A stretch of 64,000 bases of DNA from Candidatus Binatia bacterium (GTDB taxonomy: Bacteria; Desulfobacterota; Binatia; HRBIN30; BPIQ01). The stretch covers positions 1,478,311-1,542,310 of the forward strand of contig BPIQ01000001.1 of NCBI GenBank assembly GCA_026004195.1, written 5' to 3'. The notes beneath the pieces are model-generated. The model made no database searches. It worked only from the letters and a program-made list of their open reading frames with translations, and was not told the DNA's origin. Below are positions 51,619-63,709 of this stretch, piece by piece. Both the position numbers and the translations under genes were made by a program. Position 1 is the first letter of the stretch, and the number at the start of each line of letters is the position of its first letter.

Positions 51619-52248
51619 GTGCTCGAGGTTCGCCAACCCGACACTCGGGAAAGAATTCTCCAGGTTGCGGAACGGCACTTCGCCGACCTGGGCTACCACG
51701 GGGCACGGCTTGCCCGGATCGCCGAGGAAGCCGGCCTCCAGAAGGCGTCTCTCTTCCACTATTTCCGCGGAAAGGCCGAACTTTACGACGCGGTCCTTGC
51801 CAAGGGCTTCCGGGAGATCGAGGGGCCCCTCGAGGCCGTGCTCGAGAACACGCCCGCGGGCCCCTCGCGCGTCTTCCGCCTGCTCGATACCTACGTCGAC
51901 ACCGTCGTGCGCCACCCCGAGAGGACCAAACTCTGGCTCCGGCAGGCGCTCGGTGACCTTCCGCCGCTCTCCCGGCCGTTCGAGGTCGAATCGTTGATCC
52001 GCCGGGTCGCGGACTCCGTCCGTTCGGACTCGCACCTGCCACCCAAGGTCGATTCTTTTGCGCTGGTGCTGGCTGTCCTGGGGATGGTGGCGTTTTTCTT
52101 CACGAGCGTCCCCGTCCTGGTCCCGGGCTGGGCGAACCAGAGCGGGTCCTTACCGTTTTCGGAGCGCGTGAAACGGCACGTTTTCGAGATCGTCTCCTCC
52201 TGTCTCGAACCTCCTCGGGCCACCGAGGCAATGCGGGAAATACCATGA
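51619..52248 (+). CDS. TetR-family regulator of the molybdoenzyme cluster
   Basis: A 209-residue TetR-family regulator. The helix-turn-helix is at residues ~8-55 (RERILQVAERHFADLGYHGA, RLARIAEEAGLQKASLFHYF). The remainder is a helical ligand-binding domain with a hydrophobic patch (FALVLAVLGMVAFFFTSVPVLVP). The GTG follows an inverted-repeat operator that is repeated before three other transcription units of the cluster, so it probably controls all of them and itself. Its stop overlaps the start of the b-type cytochrome gene (ATGA), which makes it part of that operon. The ligand is presumably the enzyme's substrate or a product. Confidence 0.9.
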   Translation: MLEVRQPDTRERILQVAERHFADLGYHGARLARIAEEAGLQKASLFHYFRGKAELYDAVLAKGFREIEGPLEAVLENTPAGPSRVFRLLDTYVDTVVRHPERTKLWLRQALGDLPPLSRPFEVESLIRRVADSVRSDSHLPPKVDSFALVLAVLGMVAFFFTSVPVLVPGWANQSGSLPFSERVKRHVFEIVSSCLEPPRATEAMREIP

Positions 52249-52727
52249 ACCCGTCCCAAGCACGCACCACTCTTCACCTCTTGCACCTCCTGCCATTTCT
52301 CGTCCTTCTGGCCACGGGCCTTCTCCTCCGGAATCCCGACCTGCGGTCCGCGCTCGTCGGCGGCTACTCCCTCGTACTTCGCCGCGTGCACCTCTGGGCG
52401 GCGATCGCCTTCTGTGCCCTACCCCTCCCTGTGTTCTTCCGTCACGGTGTGCGAACCCTGGTTGCCGTCCGGGCGGGGCCCCCGGTACGAACGCGCTGGC
52501 GACGGATTCACACGGCCGCGACACTCGGCTTCTCGTCCGCTCTGGCCGCGACGGGCTTTCTTCTCTCGGCCGACCTTCACCTGCCCGAGCGCCTTCTGAC
52601 CGAAGCTCGATCGCTGCACGCGGCTTGTGCCGTGTCCGCCGCGCTTCTCCTGGTGGTCCACCTGCTCGAGGTCTCCGGTTCGCGGATCCGGGATCTGCTC
52701 GTACGAACTCGGGGGGCAGAGGCATGA
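52245..52727 (+). CDS. b-type cytochrome membrane subunit
   Basis: A 160-residue membrane protein with four hydrophobic helices, each carrying histidines suited to heme b ligation (HLLHLLPFLVLLATGLLL, RRVHLWAAIAFCALPLPVFF, RRIHTAATLGFSSALAATGFLL, HAACAVSAALLLVVHLLE). This resembles cytochrome b561/FdnI-type anchors that link molybdoenzymes to the quinone pool. It overlaps both neighbours by four bases (ATGA), the TetR gene upstream and the gamma-subunit gene downstream, so translation is tightly coupled. Classical ethylbenzene dehydrogenase clusters carry a longer membrane subunit; this one is short. Confidence 0.78.
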   Translation: MNPSQARTTLHLLHLLPFLVLLATGLLLRNPDLRSALVGGYSLVLRRVHLWAAIAFCALPLPVFFRHGVRTLVAVRAGPPVRTRWRRIHTAATLGFSSALAATGFLLSADLHLPERLLTEARSLHAACAVSAALLLVVHLLEVSGSRIRDLLVRTRGAEA

Positions 52728-53380
52728 GGTGCGTGAGAATTTCCGCGAGAAAAGAGTCGCTGCTCGAGCCCGATTCGCCCCTCTGGCGGTCGGTTCCGTC
52801 GGAGTCGATCGGCCTCGTGCCGACGCCCCTGGCCAACCAGCCCTCGCCCTATGTCGTCGCGGCGTGCGACCCGCGAAAGCACGGTCGAGTCCGGCGCCTT
52901 GCCGTGCAGGCAGCTCACGACGGGGAGACGATCGCGTTCCGGCTCGAGTGGAAGGACCCCCACCGCGACGAGGACACGCAGGACGCCGACCGCTTTCCCG
53001 ACGCCTGCGGAATTCTCTTTCCGCTGCGGGAAGGGAATCCGCCGCTCCTGGAGATGGGAAGTCCGAGCGCGCCCGTCAACGCCTGGTACTGGCGTGCGGA
53101 TGCGAACGGAGAGGTGCGCAACACGATCGCTCACGGCCTCGGCACGACGGAATCCACGCCCCGCTCCGCGATCCGGGCGCGGGCAGCGTGGAGGCGCGGG
53201 GTCTGGAGCGTCGTTCTGGCCCGCCCGCTTCTCGTTCCCGACCAGGCAGACGAGACCGTACAGCTCTCCCCCGGCACGGGAGTACGCGTCGCTTTCGCCG
53301 TCTGGGAAGGAAGCAACGGGGAGCGGGCGGGCCTCAAGTCTTTTTCGGGCGAGTGGCGGGAGCTCGTGATCGAAACGTGA
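52724..53380 (+). CDS. Ethylbenzene-dehydrogenase-like heme b-binding gamma subunit
   Basis: A 218-residue protein of the EB_dh (ethylbenzene dehydrogenase gamma, DdhC/SerC-like) heme-binding family. It carries AVQAAHDGETIAFRLEWKDPHRDED, FPDACGILFPL, MGSPSAPVNAWYWRAD, RARAAWRRGVWSVVLARPLL and GVRVAFAVWEGSNGERAGLKSFSGEW in family order. It would pass electrons from the beta-subunit clusters to a cytochrome or quinone. The ATG at 52724 overlaps the preceding stop; no signal peptide is visible, unlike periplasmic relatives, so the complex may face the cytoplasm or be co-exported. Confidence 0.85.
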   Translation: MRCVRISARKESLLEPDSPLWRSVPSESIGLVPTPLANQPSPYVVAACDPRKHGRVRRLAVQAAHDGETIAFRLEWKDPHRDEDTQDADRFPDACGILFPLREGNPPLLEMGSPSAPVNAWYWRADANGEVRNTIAHGLGTTESTPRSAIRARAAWRRGVWSVVLARPLLVPDQADETVQLSPGTGVRVAFAVWEGSNGERAGLKSFSGEWRELVIET

Positions 53381-53390
53381 GGAAAAAGCC

Positions 53391-54458
53391 ATGACGAACG
53401 ACCGGAGTCGAACAGGGCCTGCGGGATCGCGCTCGCGGGTCGTGCGGCGGCAGGTCGCAATGGTCTTCGACCTCAACAAGTGCCTCGGCTGCCACACCTG
53501 CGCGATCGCCTGCAAGACGCTCTGGACCCGGGACGAAGGCATGGAACACATGTGGTGGGCAACCGTGAACACCCAGCCCGGAAAGGGCACGCCCAGGGAC
53601 TGGGAAAAAATGGGCGGCGGGTTCCGGGACGGCGAACCCCTCCCCGGCCGGTTGCCCACCCTCTCGGAGTTCGGCGAGGCGTGGGAGTTCAACTACGAGG
53701 AGGTCTTCTACGGCGGAAAGGGAAACCGCGTCCACCTCCGCCCGCAAGGCAACCCGAGCTGGGGACCGAACTGGGACGAAGACCAGGGAGGCGGACGCTA
53801 CCCCAACTGCTTCTACTTCTACCTCCCGCGGATCTGCAACCACTGCACGCACCCCGCGTGCCTCGAAGCCTGCCCCCGCAAGGCGATCTACAAGCGGGAA
53901 GAAGACGGCATCGTGCTGATCGACGAAAGCCGCTGCCGCGGGTATCGCTTCTGCATGGAGGCCTGCCCGTACAAGAAAATCTACTTCAACCACGTCCGCA
54001 AAATTTCTCAGAAGTGCATCTTCTGCTTTCCGCGCGTCGAGAAGGGAGTCGCACCGGCTTGCGCGCGCCAGTGTCCCGGAAGGATGCGCTTCGTGGGCTA
54101 TCTCGACGACCCCGAAGGTCCCATCTACAAGCTCGTCCGGCAGTGGAAGGTCGCCCTCCCTCTCCACCCCGAATTCGGGACGGAACCCAACGTGTTCTAC
54201 GTGCCCCCCATCTCGCCCCCTCGTTTCGACGCGGAGGGAAACATCGACGAGTCGAAACCGCGAATCCCGACCGAGTACCTCCGCTACCTCTTCGGGCCCG
54301 GCGTGGACGCCGCCCTCGAAACACTTCGCGCCGAGATGGCGAAGACCAAAGCGGGCGGAAAATCCGAGCTCATGGACCTGCTCATCGTCTACGACTGGAA
54401 GGAGCTCTTCGGACCCTTCCGCCGAGACCCGGCGGAGATCGAACCGAGGAAGGCATGA
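53391..54458 (+). CDS. Iron-sulfur beta subunit 1 of the type II DMSO-reductase-family enzyme
   Basis: A 355-residue four-cluster ferredoxin-type subunit (EbdB/DdhB/SerB-like). Four cysteine groups are visible: CLGCHTCAIAC (C31-C41), CNHCTHPACLEAC, CRGYRFCMEAC and CIFCFPRVEKGVAPACARQC. The third group has Tyr-Arg in place of one residue pattern, as in this subfamily. The C-terminus (SELMDLLIVYDWKELFGPFRRDP) is shared with beta subunit 2. An N-terminal 20-residue Arg-rich extension is not conserved with that subunit. It is followed by the TorD-like chaperone with an ATGA overlap. No alpha subunit is in this operon. Confidence 0.9.
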   Translation: MTNDRSRTGPAGSRSRVVRRQVAMVFDLNKCLGCHTCAIACKTLWTRDEGMEHMWWATVNTQPGKGTPRDWEKMGGGFRDGEPLPGRLPTLSEFGEAWEFNYEEVFYGGKGNRVHLRPQGNPSWGPNWDEDQGGGRYPNCFYFYLPRICNHCTHPACLEACPRKAIYKREEDGIVLIDESRCRGYRFCMEACPYKKIYFNHVRKISQKCIFCFPRVEKGVAPACARQCPGRMRFVGYLDDPEGPIYKLVRQWKVALPLHPEFGTEPNVFYVPPISPPRFDAEGNIDESKPRIPTEYLRYLFGPGVDAALETLRAEMAKTKAGGKSELMDLLIVYDWKELFGPFRRDPAEIEPRKA

Positions 54459-55114
54459 GCGAGGAGCCGGTGCTCGAGAAAACGCCCGCCAACGGCCCGA
54501 CGCTGGAGCGATCCCGGCTCTATCTTCTCCTGGCCGGCGCGTTCGGCTTTCCCGACGAAGGATTCCACGAGGCCGTCAGGAAGGGCGAGCTCCGGTCGGC
54601 ACTTGCGGCCACCGCGGAGGGCTTACCGTACCCCCTGGAAGGCCCCGGGCCCGAGCTGGCGGACGGGGGCGGCTCCTATGCGGCCTTCCAGTCCGAGTAC
54701 ATCCGTCTTTTCGACGTGGGCGCCGCGGGGCCACCCTGCCCCCTCTACGGCGGCCTTTACGTCGGCGACCGCCTGAGGGTGATGGAAGAGACGGTCCGCT
54801 TCTACCACTACTTCGGCCTCCGGCTTTCGAGCGCGCTCCGGGAGCTTCCCGACCACCTGACGACGGAGCTCGAGTTCCTGCACTTCCTCACGTTCCGCGA
54901 AGCCCGAGCGAGGAGCCTCGGCGAAGACCCGTCGCCGTACGTCCGGGCCGAGCGGGACTTTCTCCTGCGCCACCCCTGCCGGTGGATTCCCCTGCTCGAG
55001 AAGCGGCTCGAGAAAACCGAGCCTCTCCCGTTCTTTTCCGCGCTCGTCTCCTTCACGCGCAGCTTTCTCGAGTCCGACCGAAGCTACTGCGAATCCCTGG
55101 CCGGTGCTTCCTAG
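54455..55114 (+). CDS. TorD-family molybdoenzyme maturation chaperone
   Basis: A 219-residue helical chaperone of the TorD/DmsD/NarJ family. It carries the signature EYIRLFDVGAAGPPCPLYGG (residues ~75-94) and helices around it (RSRLYLLLAGAFGFP, LPDHLTTELEFLHFLTFREA, WIPLLEKRLEK). It should bind an alpha subunit during cofactor insertion and, for the Tat-targeted alpha 2, delay export until folded. It closes the first operon and its start overlaps the beta 1 stop. It is the only such chaperone in the window, so it may serve both alpha subunits. Confidence 0.88.
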   Translation: MSEEPVLEKTPANGPTLERSRLYLLLAGAFGFPDEGFHEAVRKGELRSALAATAEGLPYPLEGPGPELADGGGSYAAFQSEYIRLFDVGAAGPPCPLYGGLYVGDRLRVMEETVRFYHYFGLRLSSALRELPDHLTTELEFLHFLTFREARARSLGEDPSPYVRAERDFLLRHPCRWIPLLEKRLEKTEPLPFFSALVSFTRSFLESDRSYCESLAGAS

Positions 55115-55229: not shown

Positions 55230-58004
55230 CTACGCCTTTCGCACGTCGACGTGGATCGCGCGGTCGATGGGTACCGGTTGCCAGTGGAGTCCCCTGTACT
55301 GCAGGTGTCCGTAGCCCCCGGCGAAGTGGAGCCATTTGACCATGCCGGGCTCGAGGTTTTCGGGACCGCTCCAGCCCGGGAACTGGAAAGGCTCGTAGCC
55401 GTTGTAGATGACGATCTGGCCCGGCCGCGTGCCCGGCGAGCGACGGACGCGGATTCGGGTCTCGCCGAGGTCGTTGAAGACGACGGCGAGATCGTCGTTC
55501 TCGAGCCCCCTCGCCGCCATGTCGTCCGGATTCATGTACACGACGGGGTAACCGCGATGGGTCGCGAGGATCAGGCGGCTCGTGTGGTTCATGGAATGGA
55601 TGCTCCATCGGGAGTGGCCGCTCGTGAGCCTGAGCGGGTAGTTTCCGCCCTGCCGGGGATTCGGCTTGTGGACGGGAAGCTCTTCGCCCGCCTCGAGATA
55701 CCAGGGGTGGTCGATATAGAAGGAAGCTCGACGAGTGAGCGTCGGGTACGGCTTGAGCTTTTCGACGTGGTTCCGGAAGGGCGTGTGGGTCCGGTTCGGT
55801 TCGAGCGGGGACTGCTGGCAAACCATCATGGTCGACATCCCCCAGTCCACGGCACGGATCGCGCCCCGCTCGCGGAAGGTCTCGAGCGTGGTGCCTTCGG
55901 GCAGCGTCCCCAGAAGCGCGCTGTCCCGCACGATCTCGTCGAGAAGACGGGCATCGTCGGCAAGCTCCCCGCCTTTCGTGATGGAACTCCAGAGGTTCTC
56001 GAGCGGTACGGGCTCGCCGTTGCGCCGGCGCCAGGGTTTCGTGCCGCGAGCCCTGGCCCGCTCCTCGATGGCACGCGCAAGTCCCTGGATGATCTGCCAC
56101 TCGCTTTTCGCTTCCCCCGGAGGTTCCGCCGCTTTCTCGATCAGCACCACGTGGAGGTGCATGGCGCTCGCGTAGGGCTGGTTCCACTTCTCGTAGTGCT
56201 GTGCCGCGGGAAGGATGTAGTCGGCGTAGAGCCCGGTCGTGTTGATCCGCCAGTCGACGGACACGATCATCTTGAGCTTGGGCCAGAGGTGGCGGAGGAG
56301 CATCCTTGCTCCCCCTCTCTGGCGCCGCAGGAGGTTTCCGCCTACCTCGATGAGCACCCGCGGCTCGGTCGCGGGTGCCTCGGGAGCCACGAAGTCCCAC
56401 CACCCTTTTTCCCACGCCTCGCGAAGGTACGCGTCGAACGGACGCTTCATCGCGGGGTCGTGGAACTCCCTGCGGTTCCAGACCTCCCGATACCCGCAGT
56501 GGTGGTACCAGAAAAAGGCGGGCGGCGTGAAAACGCCGAGCATTTTCGTCACTTCGCGCTCGAGCGCGTAGCGGGCCATCTCGTCCGTGATCGTCGGGTC
56601 GGCCTGCCGCATGGCCTCGAGGGTCGCATCGCGCATCGCGCGCGTCTCGAGCACGGCTTCGGGCCCGACCCTGGGCTTCATCATGACGCTGAACATGCCG
56701 TCGTTGAGACCCACGGCCCAGCTCCGGGCACCCGTCCCGTGCTTCCCCCAGTTCCCGCTGAGCCCGAGCACCAGCATCATGGCCCGTTCCATGAGATCGC
56801 CGTGGTAGTACTTGCCCGAGTTCCATCCCATCAGGATCCGGGTGCGCCGCGAGGCGATCTTCCTCGCGAGAAGCCGGATGGTCTCGGGATGGACGCCGCA
56901 GACCTTGCTCGCGAGCTCCGGGCGGTAGTCCCGGTCGAGGAGCTCTCGCAGAAAAACGAACGCGGGGGCCACCTCGACCTCCCTTCCGTCACGAAGCCTC
57001 ACCGTGACCTCTCCCTCGAGCGCGGGGTCTACCTCGCCGGGGTCCAGCGTCGCCTTGGGTGCCGGAACGACCCGTCCCGTCCGCGCATCGAGCCAGTAGA
57101 ACTGGTCGTCGCCTCCCTGGCCCAGGTCCGACGCACGGAGAAAACGCCGGTCGTCCCGCCGGACGAGCAGCGGCAGGTCCGTCTGGCGCTTGACGAACGC
57201 CGCGTCGAAAAGCGCTTCCTCCACGAGGACCTGGGAGATCGCGTTCGCCAGGGCCGCGTCCGTACCGATCTCGATCGGGACGAAGTAGTCGGCGTGGACG
57301 GCCGACGGACTGAAGTCGGGGGCGATCGTCACGACCTCGCAGCCGTTGTACCGCGCCTCCTGCACGAAGTGGTACCAGGTGATGTTCGTGTAGACGGGAT
57401 TGGCGTGCCAGATGAGCACGAGCTCGCACTTGAAAAAGTCGTCGGCGCTGGGCGCAGGGTCGAACTTGCCGAAGGTCGTGTAAATTCCCGGGCTGAAGTC
57501 GTTGATTTCCGCCTGGAGGTCCGTCACCTGGAAGCCGAGCAGCGCCGAGAACGTGTTCCAGAGGATCTGCTGGACGCCGCCCTCGCCCGGCGTTCCGATG
57601 TGGTAGAGCGAAGCCGGGCCGCACTCCTCGACGGCGTCGAGAATGGCGTCCGCGATCTCGCGCAGCGCCGTCTCCCAGCTCACGCGCTCCCACTTCCCGC
57701 TTCCTCGCTCCCCCGCGCGGCGCAGCGGGTAGAGAACGCGCTCGGGGCTTTCGTGCTGCTGGCTCCAGGCGGCTCCCTTCTGGCAGCCCATCGGGTTCAT
57801 GTCGGGAACGCCGGGCTCGATCACGGGGAAGATGCCCGCCTGCTCCTCGCGCACGATCTTCCCGCCGCGGGAGTACACTCTCCACGGGCAGCCTCCGGGA
57901 TAGCAATCCACGGCGTGGCATCCCCAGCTCACCCTGTCCCACTTCCAGACGGCCCGGTAGCGGTCCTCGCTCTCGCGCCGCGTGTCGGGATGTCTCGTCG
58001 CCAT
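55230..58004 (-). CDS. Molybdopterin alpha subunit 1, type II DMSO-reductase family, no Tat signal
   Basis: A 924-residue Mo-bisPGD enzyme subunit (EbdA/perchlorate/selenate reductase-like). The FS0 cluster ligands are H30, C34, C39 and C74 (WGCHAVDCYPGG and MNPMGCQKG; the C-x4-C spacing is unusual). The type II Mo-ligand aspartate is likely D169 (INDFSPGIYTTFGKF). Cofactor-binding segments include LIWHANPVYTNITWYHFVQEARYNG, GWNSGKYYHGDLMERAMMLVLGL and YPLRLTSGHSRWSIHSM. The ATG at 58004 is the plausible start; neither it nor an upstream extension carries an RRxFL Tat motif. It is cotranscribed with beta subunit 2, 13 bases upstream. Confidence 0.9.
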   Translation of the reverse strand: MATRHPDTRRESEDRYRAVWKWDRVSWGCHAVDCYPGGCPWRVYSRGGKIVREEQAGIFPVIEPGVPDMNPMGCQKGAAWSQQHESPERVLYPLRRAGERGSGKWERVSWETALREIADAILDAVEECGPASLYHIGTPGEGGVQQILWNTFSALLGFQVTDLQAEINDFSPGIYTTFGKFDPAPSADDFFKCELVLIWHANPVYTNITWYHFVQEARYNGCEVVTIAPDFSPSAVHADYFVPIEIGTDAALANAISQVLVEEALFDAAFVKRQTDLPLLVRRDDRRFLRASDLGQGGDDQFYWLDARTGRVVPAPKATLDPGEVDPALEGEVTVRLRDGREVEVAPAFVFLRELLDRDYRPELASKVCGVHPETIRLLARKIASRRTRILMGWNSGKYYHGDLMERAMMLVLGLSGNWGKHGTGARSWAVGLNDGMFSVMMKPRVGPEAVLETRAMRDATLEAMRQADPTITDEMARYALEREVTKMLGVFTPPAFFWYHHCGYREVWNRREFHDPAMKRPFDAYLREAWEKGWWDFVAPEAPATEPRVLIEVGGNLLRRQRGGARMLLRHLWPKLKMIVSVDWRINTTGLYADYILPAAQHYEKWNQPYASAMHLHVVLIEKAAEPPGEAKSEWQIIQGLARAIEERARARGTKPWRRRNGEPVPLENLWSSITKGGELADDARLLDEIVRDSALLGTLPEGTTLETFRERGAIRAVDWGMSTMMVCQQSPLEPNRTHTPFRNHVEKLKPYPTLTRRASFYIDHPWYLEAGEELPVHKPNPRQGGNYPLRLTSGHSRWSIHSMNHTSRLILATHRGYPVVYMNPDDMAARGLENDDLAVVFNDLGETRIRVRRSPGTRPGQIVIYNGYEPFQFPGWSGPENLEPGMVKWLHFAGGYGHLQYRGLHWQPVPIDRAIHVDVRKA

Positions 58005-58017
58005 GACTCCGCCTCCC

Positions 58018-59025
58018 TCACCAGACGATGGTCGCCGGGTCGCGTGCGAACGGTCCGAGAAGCTCTTTCCACTCGTAGGCAATGAGCGTGTCCATCAGCT
58101 CGGAAGGCTCGCCTCGTTTCTTTTTCGCAATTTCCTCCTCGAGGGTCCGCAGCGCCGCCCCCACTTCCGGACCGAAGAGCGACTCGAGGTAGGAAAGGGG
58201 TATTCTCCGCGTCGATTCGTCGATCGTGCCGTCGGGCCGGACGACGAAAGCGGAAAGCGGCGGGACGTAGAAGACGTTCGGCTGCGTGCCCCACTCCGGG
58301 TGGAGAGGCAGGGCCACCCGGTACTTCTCGACCAGGAGATGAACCGCACCCTGGGGATCCTCCCGGAATCCCACGAAGACGGCGCGTCCGGGGCACTGCC
58401 GCACGCAGGCCGGAGCCACGCCCTGCTCGAGCCTCGGGAAACACGCGATGCAGTGACGGCTCACGTTGTGGACGGCGTCGAAGTAGATCTTCTTGTACGG
58501 GCATGCCCGCGCGCAGTTCTGCGTCCCCTTGCACCGCGTCTCGTCACGCAGGACGATCCCGAAATCCTCCCGGCGGTACATGGCACCTTCGGGACACGCC
58601 TCGACGCAACTCGGCCGCGAGCAGAAGTTGCAAATCCGGGGAAGGTAGAAGTAGTAGGCGTTCGGGTACGCGCCCGCTCCTTCGTCTTCGTCCCAGTTCA
58701 TCGCCCAGGCGGGCTTGCCTCCTTCGGGCTCGAGATGGGTCTCGGTTCCCCGCCGGTAGACTTCTTCCCAGTTGTAGTCGGGAGCCTCGCCGAACTCTTC
58801 GACCGTGGGCAGGTGCCCGAGAACCACGTTTCCCCGGGCGTCGTAGCCGCCTCCCATCTTCTCGTAGTCCCGGGGCGTTCCGCGCCCCGGCTGCGTGTTC
58901 ACGGTGCACCACCACATGTGGCGCCGGCCCTCCTCGTTCGTCCAGAGAACCTTGCACGCAACCGAGCAGGTCTGACAGCCGAGGCACTTGTTGAGGTCGA
59001 ACACCATGGCGAGTTGCTTGCCCAT
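58018..59025 (-). CDS. Iron-sulfur beta subunit 2 of the type II DMSO-reductase-family enzyme
   Basis: A 335-residue four-cluster subunit, paralogous to beta 1 (LAMVFDLNKCLGCQTCSVAC, WWCTVNTQPGRGTPRDYEKMGGG, CNFCSRPSCVEAC, CKGTQNCARAC, CIACFPRLEQGVAPACVRQC). Sequence identity with beta 1 runs through the whole length. The third group (CKGTQNC versus CRGYRFC) is the clearest difference and may mark different partners. It is the first gene of the leftward unit with alpha 1, and its start is 23 bases from a perfect CCTACCG-TT-CGGTAGG operator. Confidence 0.92.
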   Translation of the reverse strand: MGKQLAMVFDLNKCLGCQTCSVACKVLWTNEEGRRHMWWCTVNTQPGRGTPRDYEKMGGGYDARGNVVLGHLPTVEEFGEAPDYNWEEVYRRGTETHLEPEGGKPAWAMNWDEDEGAGAYPNAYYFYLPRICNFCSRPSCVEACPEGAMYRREDFGIVLRDETRCKGTQNCARACPYKKIYFDAVHNVSRHCIACFPRLEQGVAPACVRQCPGRAVFVGFREDPQGAVHLLVEKYRVALPLHPEWGTQPNVFYVPPLSAFVVRPDGTIDESTRRIPLSYLESLFGPEVGAALRTLEEEIAKKKRGEPSELMDTLIAYEWKELLGPFARDPATIVW

Positions 59026-59203: not shown

Positions 59204-62082
59204 GTGCATCTCTCGCGGAGAGATTTCCTCCGGGCCGGTGCCCAGGGGGCCCTCGTCCTCGGGCTCGCGCGGCTCGAGCTTGCCTGCGGCCCCTCGGAAC
59301 GGTCCTCGGACCGGCAGACTTCCCGCCGCGTGGCGCCGCGCCCGGCGCGCGAGCCCGAGACGTACCGGAGCTGGGAGGACGTCTACCGCCAGGCCTGGAC
59401 GTGGGACCGCGTCGTCAAGGTGACGCACACACGCGCCAACTGTATCGCGGCCTGTTCGTGGAACGCGTTCGTGAAGGACGGGATCGTCTGGCGCGAGGAG
59501 CAGAACGCGATCTACGAGCCCAGCCACCCGAGCGTTCCGGACATGAACCCCCGCGGCTGCCAGAAAGGTGCGTGTTTCAGCCAGCTCATGGTCGAGCCTT
59601 CGCGCGTCAAGTATCCACTGCGCCGAGTGGGCGAGCGGGGAAGCGGAAGGTGGGAGCGGGTGAGTTGGGAGGCGGCTCTGCGCGAGATCGCCGACCGGCT
59701 CCTCGACGTCGCGCTGCGCGACGGACCCGACTGCGTCGTCTACGACCACGGCACGACCAACATCGACTTCGGCACCGGGACCGGAGCGGAGCTCCGCTTC
59801 TTCCAGCTCTTCGGGGCGACGATCATGGACTCCTGGGCCGGTGTGGGAGATCTGCCCATGGGTGCCATCCAGACCTGGGGGCACTTCAACGCGGACGGCT
59901 CGTCGGACGACTGGTTTCGCTCGGACTACTACGTCATCTGGCTCGCGAACCCCGTCTACACGCGCATCCCCGACGTCCACTTCGTGTGGGAAGCGCGCTA
60001 CCGCGGGGCCACGGTCGTCTCGGTGGCCCCGGACTACAACGCGAGTAGCATCCACGCCGACCTCTGGCTCGCCCCGCGCGTGGGAACCGACGCGGCGCTC
60101 GCCCTTTCCCTCGCGCAGGTGATCGTCTCGGAGAAACTTTACGACGCGGATTACGTCCGCGAGCAGACGGATCTTCCTTTCCTCGTGCGCGAGGACACCG
60201 GGCGCTACCTGCGAGAGTCGGACCTCGAGCGCGGAGGACGGGAAGAGGTGTTCTACTTCTGGGACGAGCGCACGCAGAAGCTCGCCGAGGCACCCGGAAG
60301 CCAGGGACACCCGAAGCAGACTCTCGCCCTCGGCGGCGTGCGACCCGCCCTGCACGGCTCCTTCGTCGTGCGGCTCGCCGACGGTGGCACGGCTCGCGTG
60401 ACTCCTCTTTTCGAAAGGCTCGCCCGCCATCTCGAGACGTTCACACCGGAGAAGACCCGGGAGGTCACCGGCGTGTCTTCCTCGCTCGTCCGCAAGGTCG
60501 CTCGCGATTTCGCCCGGGCTCGGCGTGCGATGATCTTCGCGTCGTGGGGCTCGTGCAAGCATTACCACTCCGATCTCGTGCAGAGAGCGCTCTGCCTCCT
60601 CGTGGCGCTCACGGGAAACCAGGGAAAGAGCGGCGGGGGCGTCCGACCCGGTGCGTGGTACAGCATCGACGGGCTTTCGCGCCTGGCCGGGGAGATTTCC
60701 GTTCCCTTCTACGTACGGCTCTGGGCCCGTTTTTTCCGGCCGAAGGTTCGCGACCTGGAAGCGCTTCTCGACCGCGTGACCCGCGAGCGGGCCTTCACGG
60801 CCACTCTTCCCTTCCTTTACGTCCACGGCGGCATGAAAGAACTGGTCGACCGTCCCGACTTCCACGACTCCTCCTTGCCCCGCCCGTTCGTGGAGTACGT
60901 GCGAGAGGCGACGGAAAAGGGCTGGATGCCCGTCTCCCCTCCGCCCGACCGGCCGCCGCGCGTCTACTTTTTCACCGGCGCCAACCCGCTCCGTCGCTGG
61001 CCCGTGCCTCAGGTCGTCCGGCGACACCTCTGGCCGAAGCTCGAGCTCGTCGTGAGCCTCAACTTCCGGATGTCGAGCACCGGGCTCGAAGCCGATTTCG
61101 TCCTGCCCGCTGCCGGCTACTACGAGAAGATCGGAATCAAGTACCCCCAGAGTCTCGTTCCCTACATCGTCTTCGGCGACAAGGCCGTGGAGCCGCTCGG
61201 GGAGTCGAAGTCCGAGTGGGAGGTCATGACGCTCCTTGCGCGTGCCGTGCAGGAAAGAGCGCGCGAGCGCGGGATCGTCTCGTTCGTGGACCGCGGGGGA
61301 TCCCGCGGGACTACGCCAACTTCTACGAAGACTTCACGATGGAGCGGCGCTTCGACGAAACGAAGGAAGAAAAAGCCATGGACTGGCTCTTGCGTCGCTC
61401 GCCCGCCGTGGGGAAGACGCGGTGGTCCGAAGCACGCCGGACCGGCGCCGTGCGGGTGCGTGCCTTCGGGCACTACGGCCCGCACAACGCGATCTGCAGC
61501 GACTACGAGGAGGGGAACACGGTCTACCCCCACCGATGGTTCGTCGAAAAGAAAGAACCCTGGCCCACGCTCACGGGGCGGCAACAGTTCTTGCTGGAAC
61601 ACCCCTGGTACGTGGAAGCCGGCGAAGAGCTTCCCACATACAAGGAACCGCCGAAGGCGGGCGGTGACTACCCCCTCCGGCTGACGGGCGGACACACCCG
61701 CTGGTCCATCCACGCCATCTGGCGGGACCAGCGCCACATGCTGCGGCTCCAGCGCGGCGAGCCCGTTCTGTTCGTGAACCCCGAAGACGCTCGAGCCCGC
61801 GGGATCGGAGACCACGCGCTCGTCCGCGTTCGGAACGACGTCGATTCTTTCCTCGTCCGCGCGAAGCTCTCGCCCGCCGTGCAACCCGGGCAGGTCGTCC
61901 TCTACCATGCCTGGGAGAACTTCCAGTTCGCGGACTGGCAGCAGGGACAGGCCGTCGTTCCTTCCCCGTGGAAGGCGCTCCACCTGGCCTCGGGCTACGG
62001 CCACCTGCGCTACCGGATGTACGGCGCCGCTCCGAGTCACACGCCGCGGGGAACCACCGTGGAAGTGGAAGCCGTGACCTAG
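59204..62082 (+). CDS. Molybdopterin alpha subunit 2, Tat-targeted, frameshifted near residue 700
   Basis: A ~959-residue type II DMSO-reductase-family alpha subunit. It begins with a twin-arginine signal (HLSRRDFLRAGAQGALVLG). FS0 ligands are H75, C80, C84 and C119 (HTRANCIAAC, NPRGCQKG). The Mo-ligand Asp is likely D216 (GDLPMGAIQTWG, closely like NarG's DLPPASPQTWG). The frame breaks at a run of five G near 61301; a sixth G would join VSFVDRGG to IPRDYANFYEDFTMERRF, and the protein continues normally through YPLRLTGGHTRWSIHAI to WKALHLASGYGHLRYRM. It is a separate transcription unit with its own operator. Its beta partner is not fixed by context. Confidence 0.88.
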
Positions 62083-62329: not shown

Positions 62330-63709
62330 ATGGCGGTCTCCTCCGTTCGCCGGCTTCCCGCGGTAGCCCTGTCCGTCGGTGTATTCCTGCTGCGGCTCGC
62401 CGCTGCCGGAGAGCTCCCGGCCGAGGGTCCGAGTCTTCGGGCGCTTCACGAGAAGATCGCCGAGCCCCGCTGGCTCGTCGCGTACCTGCTCGAACCGGCG
62501 CGTTTCCAGCCGGGCACGGCCATGCCCGACTTCGACCTCGAAGCCCGCGAAGCGCAGGCCCTGGCGCGGTTTCTCTACGGTAGCGAGGAGCCGCACGCAT
62601 CGTCTCCCCTCGCGGGGGACGCCGAACGAGGCCGTGCGATTTTCGATCGCCGGGGTTGCGGCGCGTGTCACGCCACGACGACCCGCGAGCGGAGCTTCTC
62701 CGGCCGGGTTCCCAACCTCGCCTCCGCGGGGCTCAAGCTCCACGCCGAATGGACCCTGAGCTGGCTCCGGGACCCGCGAGCGGTCGACCCCGGCGCGACC
62801 ATGCCGCGATTTCCCTTGATGCAGGCGGAGGTCGAGGACGTCGTGGCGTTTCTCGCCACGCTGCGAGAAGGTACCGACGCACTCGCCGGCGCACCGCCTT
62901 TCGACCCCCGAGCGGATGCGACGCTCGGAAAAACGCTCTTCGAGCAGTACGGGTGCGGGAGTTGCCATGTCCTCGGGGTGCGCACGAGAAGTTCGAGTTT
63001 TTCTCCGCGGACGCGGGAGGAGCTGGTTCGGCTCGGCGAAACCCTCGTCTCGCGCTACCACTGCCGCGCCTGCCACCGGATCGGCCCGGAGGATCCGGCT
63101 ACCGAGTTCCGCCGCGCCGACGTCGGCGCTCCGGCCCTCGACGAGGAGGCGCGGCGGGTCCGCCGCTCGTGGCTCGTCGCCTACCTCGAGAGTCCCGTGC
63201 CTCTTCGCCCTCGCCTCGAGGTGCCCATGCCGGACTACGGACTCGACGAGCAGGAAGCGAGCGCGATCACCGCCTATCTTGCCTCCCTCGCCGGCCTCGA
63301 AGAGGAGGCCGAGGAAGCGTGGAGCCCGCCGCCCGAGCTCGTCCAGGCCGGGATCGAGCGACTTGCCCACTACCGCTGCATGCAGTGCCACACGACCTCG
63401 AGCACCGTCCCGCCCGAGAACCGCGCCATCGACCTCGACCTCGCACGGTCGAGGCTCCGGGTTTCGTGGATTCGCTCGCTTTTGCGGAACCCGGAAAAAG
63501 CGCTCGGCGCAGGCACGCTCATGCCGAGCGTCTTCTACGACGCCGAAGGCAGGCCGAAGGTCGCCGGGGCCGAAAAGGAAATCGAGGCCATCACGGCCGC
63601 GCTCGTGGCGAGCGAGGCGGGGCTCGAGACGGCCGTGGCCCGGCTCGAAGCGGAGCGACACAAAGCCGCGCCCGGCGCGGACATCGACTGGACGAAGTAC
63701 GAGTACTGA
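62330..63709 (+). CDS. Tetraheme cytochrome c, probable electron acceptor
   Basis: A 459-residue exported cytochrome. A signal peptide (LPAVALSVGVFLLRLAAAG) is followed by cytochrome c domains with CxxCH sites at C110 (CGACH), C209 (CGSCH), C245 (CRACH) and C350 (CMQCH). Each is followed or paired with an axial-Met-like MP motif (TMPRF, VPMPDY, LMPSV). The first ~55 mature residues (EPRWLVAYLLEPARFQPGTAMPDF) repeat the second half of such a domain without its heme site, suggesting a lost heme or domain duplication. Its operator and position next to the Tat-targeted alpha 2 suggest it takes electrons from this enzyme in the periplasm. Confidence 0.88.
   Translation: MAVSSVRRLPAVALSVGVFLLRLAAAGELPAEGPSLRALHEKIAEPRWLVAYLLEPARFQPGTAMPDFDLEAREAQALARFLYGSEEPHASSPLAGDAERGRAIFDRRGCGACHATTTRERSFSGRVPNLASAGLKLHAEWTLSWLRDPRAVDPGATMPRFPLMQAEVEDVVAFLATLREGTDALAGAPPFDPRADATLGKTLFEQYGCGSCHVLGVRTRSSSFSPRTREELVRLGETLVSRYHCRACHRIGPEDPATEFRRADVGAPALDEEARRVRRSWLVAYLESPVPLRPRLEVPMPDYGLDEQEASAITAYLASLAGLEEEAEEAWSPPPELVQAGIERLAHYRCMQCHTTSSTVPPENRAIDLDLARSRLRVSWIRSLLRNPEKALGAGTLMPSVFYDAEGRPKVAGAEKEIEAITAALVASEAGLETAVARLEAERHKAAPGADIDWTKYEY

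Follow-up and report, generated by a model that had tools for sequence, protein, structure and literature searches.

A Tat-less branch of EbdA-type molybdenum enzymes that probably works in the cytoplasm

Ethylbenzene dehydrogenase (EbdABC) is a molybdenum enzyme that introduces water-derived oxygen into hydrocarbons on the outer side of the inner membrane. Hydrocarbon and steroid hydroxylases of the EbdA group, as far as they have been characterised, have been assigned to the periplasm (PMC10100899, PMC7411048, PMC8840923). In a review, EbdA, CmdA, S25dA, SerA, ClrA, DdhA, and PcrA are given as periplasmic, and only NarG as periplasmic or cytoplasmic (PMC10100899). The hallmarks of the type II subfamily are an Asp ligand to the Mo and an FS0 site formed by one His and three Cys residues (PMC8840923). 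In Sterolibacterium denitrificans, the steroid C25 and C26 dehydrogenases (S25DH and S26DH) were assigned to the periplasm on account of their Tat sequences (PMC7411048). In the literature that we searched, which consisted of papers available without subscription, we found no account of an EbdA branch that lacks the Tat signal or is cytoplasmic.

In the present study, we analysed a window of 64,000 nucleotides from a Candidatus Binatia bacterium, for which an earlier note had described an alpha subunit without a Tat signal and raised the possibility of a cytoplasmic complex. We found that the absence of the signal is, on comparison of homologues, real and ancestral to a large and apparently undescribed clade. 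We consider it likely that this subunit (alpha1) and the adjoining beta2 form a cytoplasmic EbdA-type Mo enzyme, a C-H hydroxylase or dehydrogenase without a dedicated gamma subunit, whose Tat signal was lost once. The genes concerned are the following (positions in the window).

52245..52727, plus strand: small membrane cytochrome b561-like protein (PF01292, 30.7 bits; cut-off 30.1)
52724..53380, plus strand: gamma, EbdC-like heme-b (EB_dh) subunit without a signal (PF09459, TIGR03477)
53391..54458, plus strand: beta1, iron-sulfur subunit (TIGR03478, 528.8 bits; beta tree)
54455..55114, plus strand: delta, type II enzyme chaperone, NarJ/EbdD-like (TIGR03482, 170 bits; PF02613)
55230..58004, minus strand: alpha1, EbdA-like molybdopterin catalytic subunit (phmmer, HMM, AF2, residue conservation)
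58018..59025, minus strand: beta2, four-cluster iron-sulfur subunit without a signal peptide (2ivf_B, E 4.7e-115)
59204..62082, plus strand: alpha2, Tat-bearing paralogue (SRRDFLRAGAQGALVLGLARL; H-x4-C-x3-C), the in-genome contrast to alpha1

The alpha1 reading frame is intact (924 aa), with a ribosome-binding site (GGGAGG) and an ATG start 13 nt past the beta2 stop codon. Its N-terminus, MATRHPDTRRESEDRYRAVWKWD, is hydrophilic and without a Tat signal, as the earlier note had read it, and has no Sec signal either. Classical Tat signals are carried by paralogues in the same genome, both within the window (alpha2) and outside it, and TatC is encoded there too. We called Tat signals in homologues from 240 bp upstream of the alpha core, in three frames, as RR-x-hydrophobic followed by a hydrophobic stretch. 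By this rule of RR motif and hydrophobicity, which is not a trained predictor, no Tat signal was called in any frame for 111 of the 114 alpha1-clade members that could be assessed, and the remaining three hits look like chance. An in-frame Tat signal was present in 59 of 60 assessable Tat-type relatives. As the clade members were collected by similarity to alpha1, the counts describe the alpha1 clade and not the entire family.

In the FastTree phylogeny, alpha1 fell within a clade of 117 sequences that contained no Tat-bearing member and had Tat-bearing sisters; by parsimony, five changes explained the entire tree, with three labels corrected by hand from a reading of the N-terminus. In an IQ-TREE analysis of a 39-row subsample, the alpha1 clade was recovered (100/100), its sister groups were mostly Tat-positive, and the clade and EbdA were united (100/100). 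Judged by record titles, the clade includes sequences from Chloroflexota, Myxococcota, Actinomycetota, and Acidobacteriota, as well as from genomes labelled Deltaproteobacteria. Comparison across this tree places a single loss of the signal in the ancestor of the clade. In the seven closest loci, the beta stop codon precedes the alpha core by only 41-122 nt, and the N-terminus that fills this gap is short and hydrophilic; thus, a sequence error or a hidden start was excluded. The absence is a stronger observation than when first noted, because it is a trait of the whole clade, and the case of orthologues with a Tat signal that a sequence error had removed here did not occur.

The best solved relative of alpha1 is EbdA of Aromatoleum aromaticum (PDB 2IVF chain A; phmmer, E 1.2e-223), and the alpha and beta subunits both align with EbdABC over nearly their full length. 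The alignment pairs residue 12 of alpha1 with EbdA residue 64 and extends to both C-termini, so that alpha1 starts where mature EbdA starts. The AF2 model of alpha1 (pLDDT 87.8) superposes over its full length on 2ivf_A with a TM score of 0.95. The score is 0.86 to perchlorate reductase (PcrAB, PDB 4YDD), which is likewise a type II alpha-beta enzyme but is periplasmic, has a C-x3-C spacing, and is more distant from alpha1. Against the type II alpha model TIGR03479, alpha1 scored 868.5 bits, under the cut-off of 984.75; the match begins at model position 42, and the missing Tat region therefore accounts for part of the shortfall. With NF042978, the equivalog of ethylbenzene dehydrogenase proper, it scored 764 bits and did not reach the cut-off of 2000.

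Both type II marks are present in alpha1. The Mo ligand Asp169 corresponds to Asp223 of EbdA and is Asp in all 117 clade members, and Lys398 corresponds to the active-site Lys450 and is kept in 116 of the 117. Alpha1 thus has the intact catalytic core of an EbdA-type hydroxylase, which favours C-H hydroxylation as the predicted activity without proving it. On the substrate side, His192 and Asp485 of EbdA are replaced by Pro and Leu, respectively, so that ethylbenzene itself is not implied as the substrate. Alpha1 is a variant branch beside EbdA rather than an ethylbenzene dehydrogenase by name.

These same substitutions, and the reduction of nitrate, selenate, and perchlorate by near family members, would fit a cytoplasmic type II reductase or another oxidoreductase in place of a C-H hydroxylase. 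We regard this as unlikely, though it deserves some weight, since the nearest characterised lineage by phmmer, IQ-TREE, and TM score is EbdA, with both Asp223 and Lys450 conserved, and since acyl-CoA and alcohol dehydrogenases flank the loci in the Chloroflexota-rich set. No one partner was conserved in Pfam tallies of the neighbouring genes, in which the recurrent families were acyl-CoA dehydrogenase, alcohol dehydrogenase, TetR, and transporters.

The FS0 ligands of alpha1 are H30-x3-C34-x4-C39-x34-C74, just as the earlier note described them, and they align on the ligands of EbdA. All four were invariant in a 41-row alignment, and an FS0 motif was found in 117 of 117 clade members. C39 is in register with C92 of EbdA and hence lies within the cluster site. 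The spacing had been taken as unusual and as an argument for the cytoplasm; neither holds. EbdA has H-x3-C-x5-C (HLNICWPQGSC), against H-x3-C-x3-C in PcrA and NarG, and 106 of the 117 alpha1-clade sequences have H-x3-C-x4-C-x34-C. Tat-bearing groups among the collected homologues have H-x4-C-x3-C or H-x3-C-x5-C, with a few C-x6-C, and C-x4-C is also found in two Tat-bearing sisters (L135 and L142), so that the spacing is uncoupled from the loss of the signal. Cysteine counts did not differ between Tat-less and Tat groups, and this test of the compartment was neutral.

As for the partners, a tree of 64 beta subunits contained one clade of 47 with beta2 (support 100), of which 35 adjoin Tat-less alphas of the alpha1 clade and none adjoins a Tat-bearing alpha. 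Beta1 grouped with Tat-associated betas (support 82). By this pattern, beta2 is the probable dedicated partner of alpha1, and beta1 probably is not its partner. The betas of the beta2 clade carry no Tat signal of their own; the two hits obtained lie upstream of the start codon and are attributed to chance. The gamma subunit, which aligns with EbdC (2ivf_C; residues 1-213 on 1-209), lies beside beta1 and not beta2; the only other EB_dh gene in the genome is far off on the contig. As beta1 sides with the Tat-type betas, gamma most likely belongs to the periplasmic Tat-type complexes of the same cluster. It does lack a signal, as claimed before, yet periplasmic EbdC is equally signal-less, so that the absence is uninformative on the compartment and cannot serve as an argument for the cytoplasm. 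Export as a passenger would explain the signal-less gamma and EbdC alike.

Could alpha1 nevertheless use the gamma at 52724 in a cytoplasmic alpha-beta-gamma complex? No other EbdC-like gamma lies near the cluster, and mixing of subunits was used for S25DH (alpha1 beta3 gamma3; PMC6016249). Chloroflexota operons of the order alpha-alpha-gamma-beta-delta-alpha combine Tat-less alphas with gamma, and no subunit in them has a signal; several such operons, with gamma beside Tat-less alphas, are counter-evidence to an enzyme without gamma. We nevertheless judge a shared gamma improbable, because of the affinity of the neighbouring beta1 and because, in genomes labelled Deltaproteobacteria, most alpha-beta2 pairs come without gamma. 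The best reading of these arrangements is that enzymes of the alpha1 branch usually have no heme-b gamma of their own.

In the preferred reading, the alpha1-beta2 pair, with FS0 His/Cys3, the Asp ligand, and the catalytic lysine retained, would probably carry out an O2-independent hydroxylation or dehydrogenation, with oxygen derived from water, at a C-H bond of a hydrophobic intermediate. Electrons would pass from the Mo through FS0 to FS1-FS4 of beta2, whose cluster motifs are the usual ones, and would exit from FS4 with no heme-b gamma dedicated to the complex. The residue at the side of FS4 is Thr in beta2, mostly Ala, Ser, Asn, Thr, or Asp in its clade, and Tyr or His in 9 of 9 Tat-adjacent betas; the difference is concordant with the clade and does not simply track the presence of gamma. 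This Thr, together with the lack of an adjoining gamma, suggests a different electron exit. The acceptor may be a soluble carrier of the cytoplasm or, as in NarGHI, a membrane cytochrome b on the cytoplasmic side; a NarI-like cytochrome b is our best guess. At three loci (L061, L066, and L078), a cytochrome b561-like homologue lies directly upstream of a Tat-less alpha, in the order cytochrome b-alpha-beta2, which might represent a NarGHI-like layout. Against this link stand its small basis of three loci and the occurrence of the family in Tat-type loci too. As a marker of Tat-less enzymes the gene was rejected for the latter reason, and it is suggestive only.

Among known systems, EbdABC shares with the alpha1-beta2 pair the FS0 and active-site residues and the four-cluster beta, and differs in that EbdH is periplasmic whereas alpha1 has no Tat signal, in C-x5-C against C-x4-C, and in His at the FS4 side position and a gamma that beta2 does not adjoin. 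S25DH and S26DH, likened here by description and not by sequence, belong to the same subfamily, in which a single genome encodes several paralogous alphas and the beta and gamma sets are interchangeable, but the alphas of S25DH and S26DH have Tat signals and are placed in the periplasm (PMC7411048). NarGHI of Escherichia coli resembles the proposed topology, in which a cytoplasmic alpha-beta pair sits on a cytochrome b of the membrane; its sequence similarity to alpha1 is distant only, and the membrane partner of alpha1-beta2 is conjectural.

Since the alpha1 branch has lost its export signal, alpha1 probably works inside the cell; we infer this localisation from sequence. The proposal of a cytoplasmic complex is thus well supported by the clade-wide absence, the lack of room upstream, and the signal-less alpha and beta, while the arguments from FS0 and gamma fall away. 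A periplasmic complex in which alpha1 travels as the passenger of a signal-bearing partner is distinctly less probable than either alternative above. Such export of signal-less subunits is described for PaoABC (PMC4273604), it was proposed for NxrB (PMC3578206), and periplasmic EbdC is itself signal-less; however, beta2, gamma, and the chaperone all lack a signal, as do the betas and gammas of the clade, and it is alpha, the very subunit that lost the signal here, that carries it in S25DH/S26DH and NXR. That a Tat signal is present but masked by a misassigned start or faulty sequencing, as an upstream TTG at 58082 that lengthens the alpha1 frame and the broken frame of the neighbouring alpha2 might suggest, is hardly credible, as the added stretch runs into the conserved C-terminal region of beta2 and has no hydrophobic stretch, and the same all-frame absence upstream of 111 of 114 orthologues refutes it.

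The large Tat-less clade predicts a cytoplasmic version of the enzyme with a different electron exit. More tentatively, and with somewhat less than even confidence, it may represent a widespread undescribed branch of cytoplasmic EbdA-type alpha-beta hydroxylases, in which a membrane cytochrome b or soluble carrier replaces the heme-b gamma and the periplasmic cytochrome c. If so, many uncultured Chloroflexota, Myxococcota, and Actinomycetota could attack hydrophobic, possibly CoA-linked compounds intracellularly without oxygen. The clade is a candidate for such attack in many uncultured bacteria on substrates inside the cell, among them CoA thioesters, which never reach the periplasm. Homology to EbdA is insufficient by name alone to assign a periplasmic location.

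Several further observations concern the paralogues. The alpha2 reading frame shifts at 61303-61366, whereas alpha1 is intact, and alpha4, beyond the window (C1:1549918-1552636), is likewise split between frames; either assembly error or gene decay may be responsible. A multi-heme c-type cytochrome adjoining alpha2 (62330-63709) might accept electrons from the Tat-type complexes in the periplasm. Outside the alpha1 clade, a second small group of Tat-less alphas (L025, L028, L041, L042, L043, and L132), often in tandem pairs, has H-x3-C-x4-C-x37-C and apparently lost the signal independently. A truncated alpha (L047:11675-12016), whose locus also contains three Tat-less alphas, has a clear Tat signal and C-x4-C; with 114 aa of mature sequence it is unplaceable in the tree and is a possible exception. 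Three signal-less Chloroflexota alphas (L106, L100, and L068) are nested in the H-x4-C-x3-C Tat group. The FS0 motif was not found in L068; in L106 and L100, the FS0 His is apparently replaced by Cys (CNQADCIAAC and CVQADCIAAC), possibly giving an all-cysteine FS0 in a type II enzyme.
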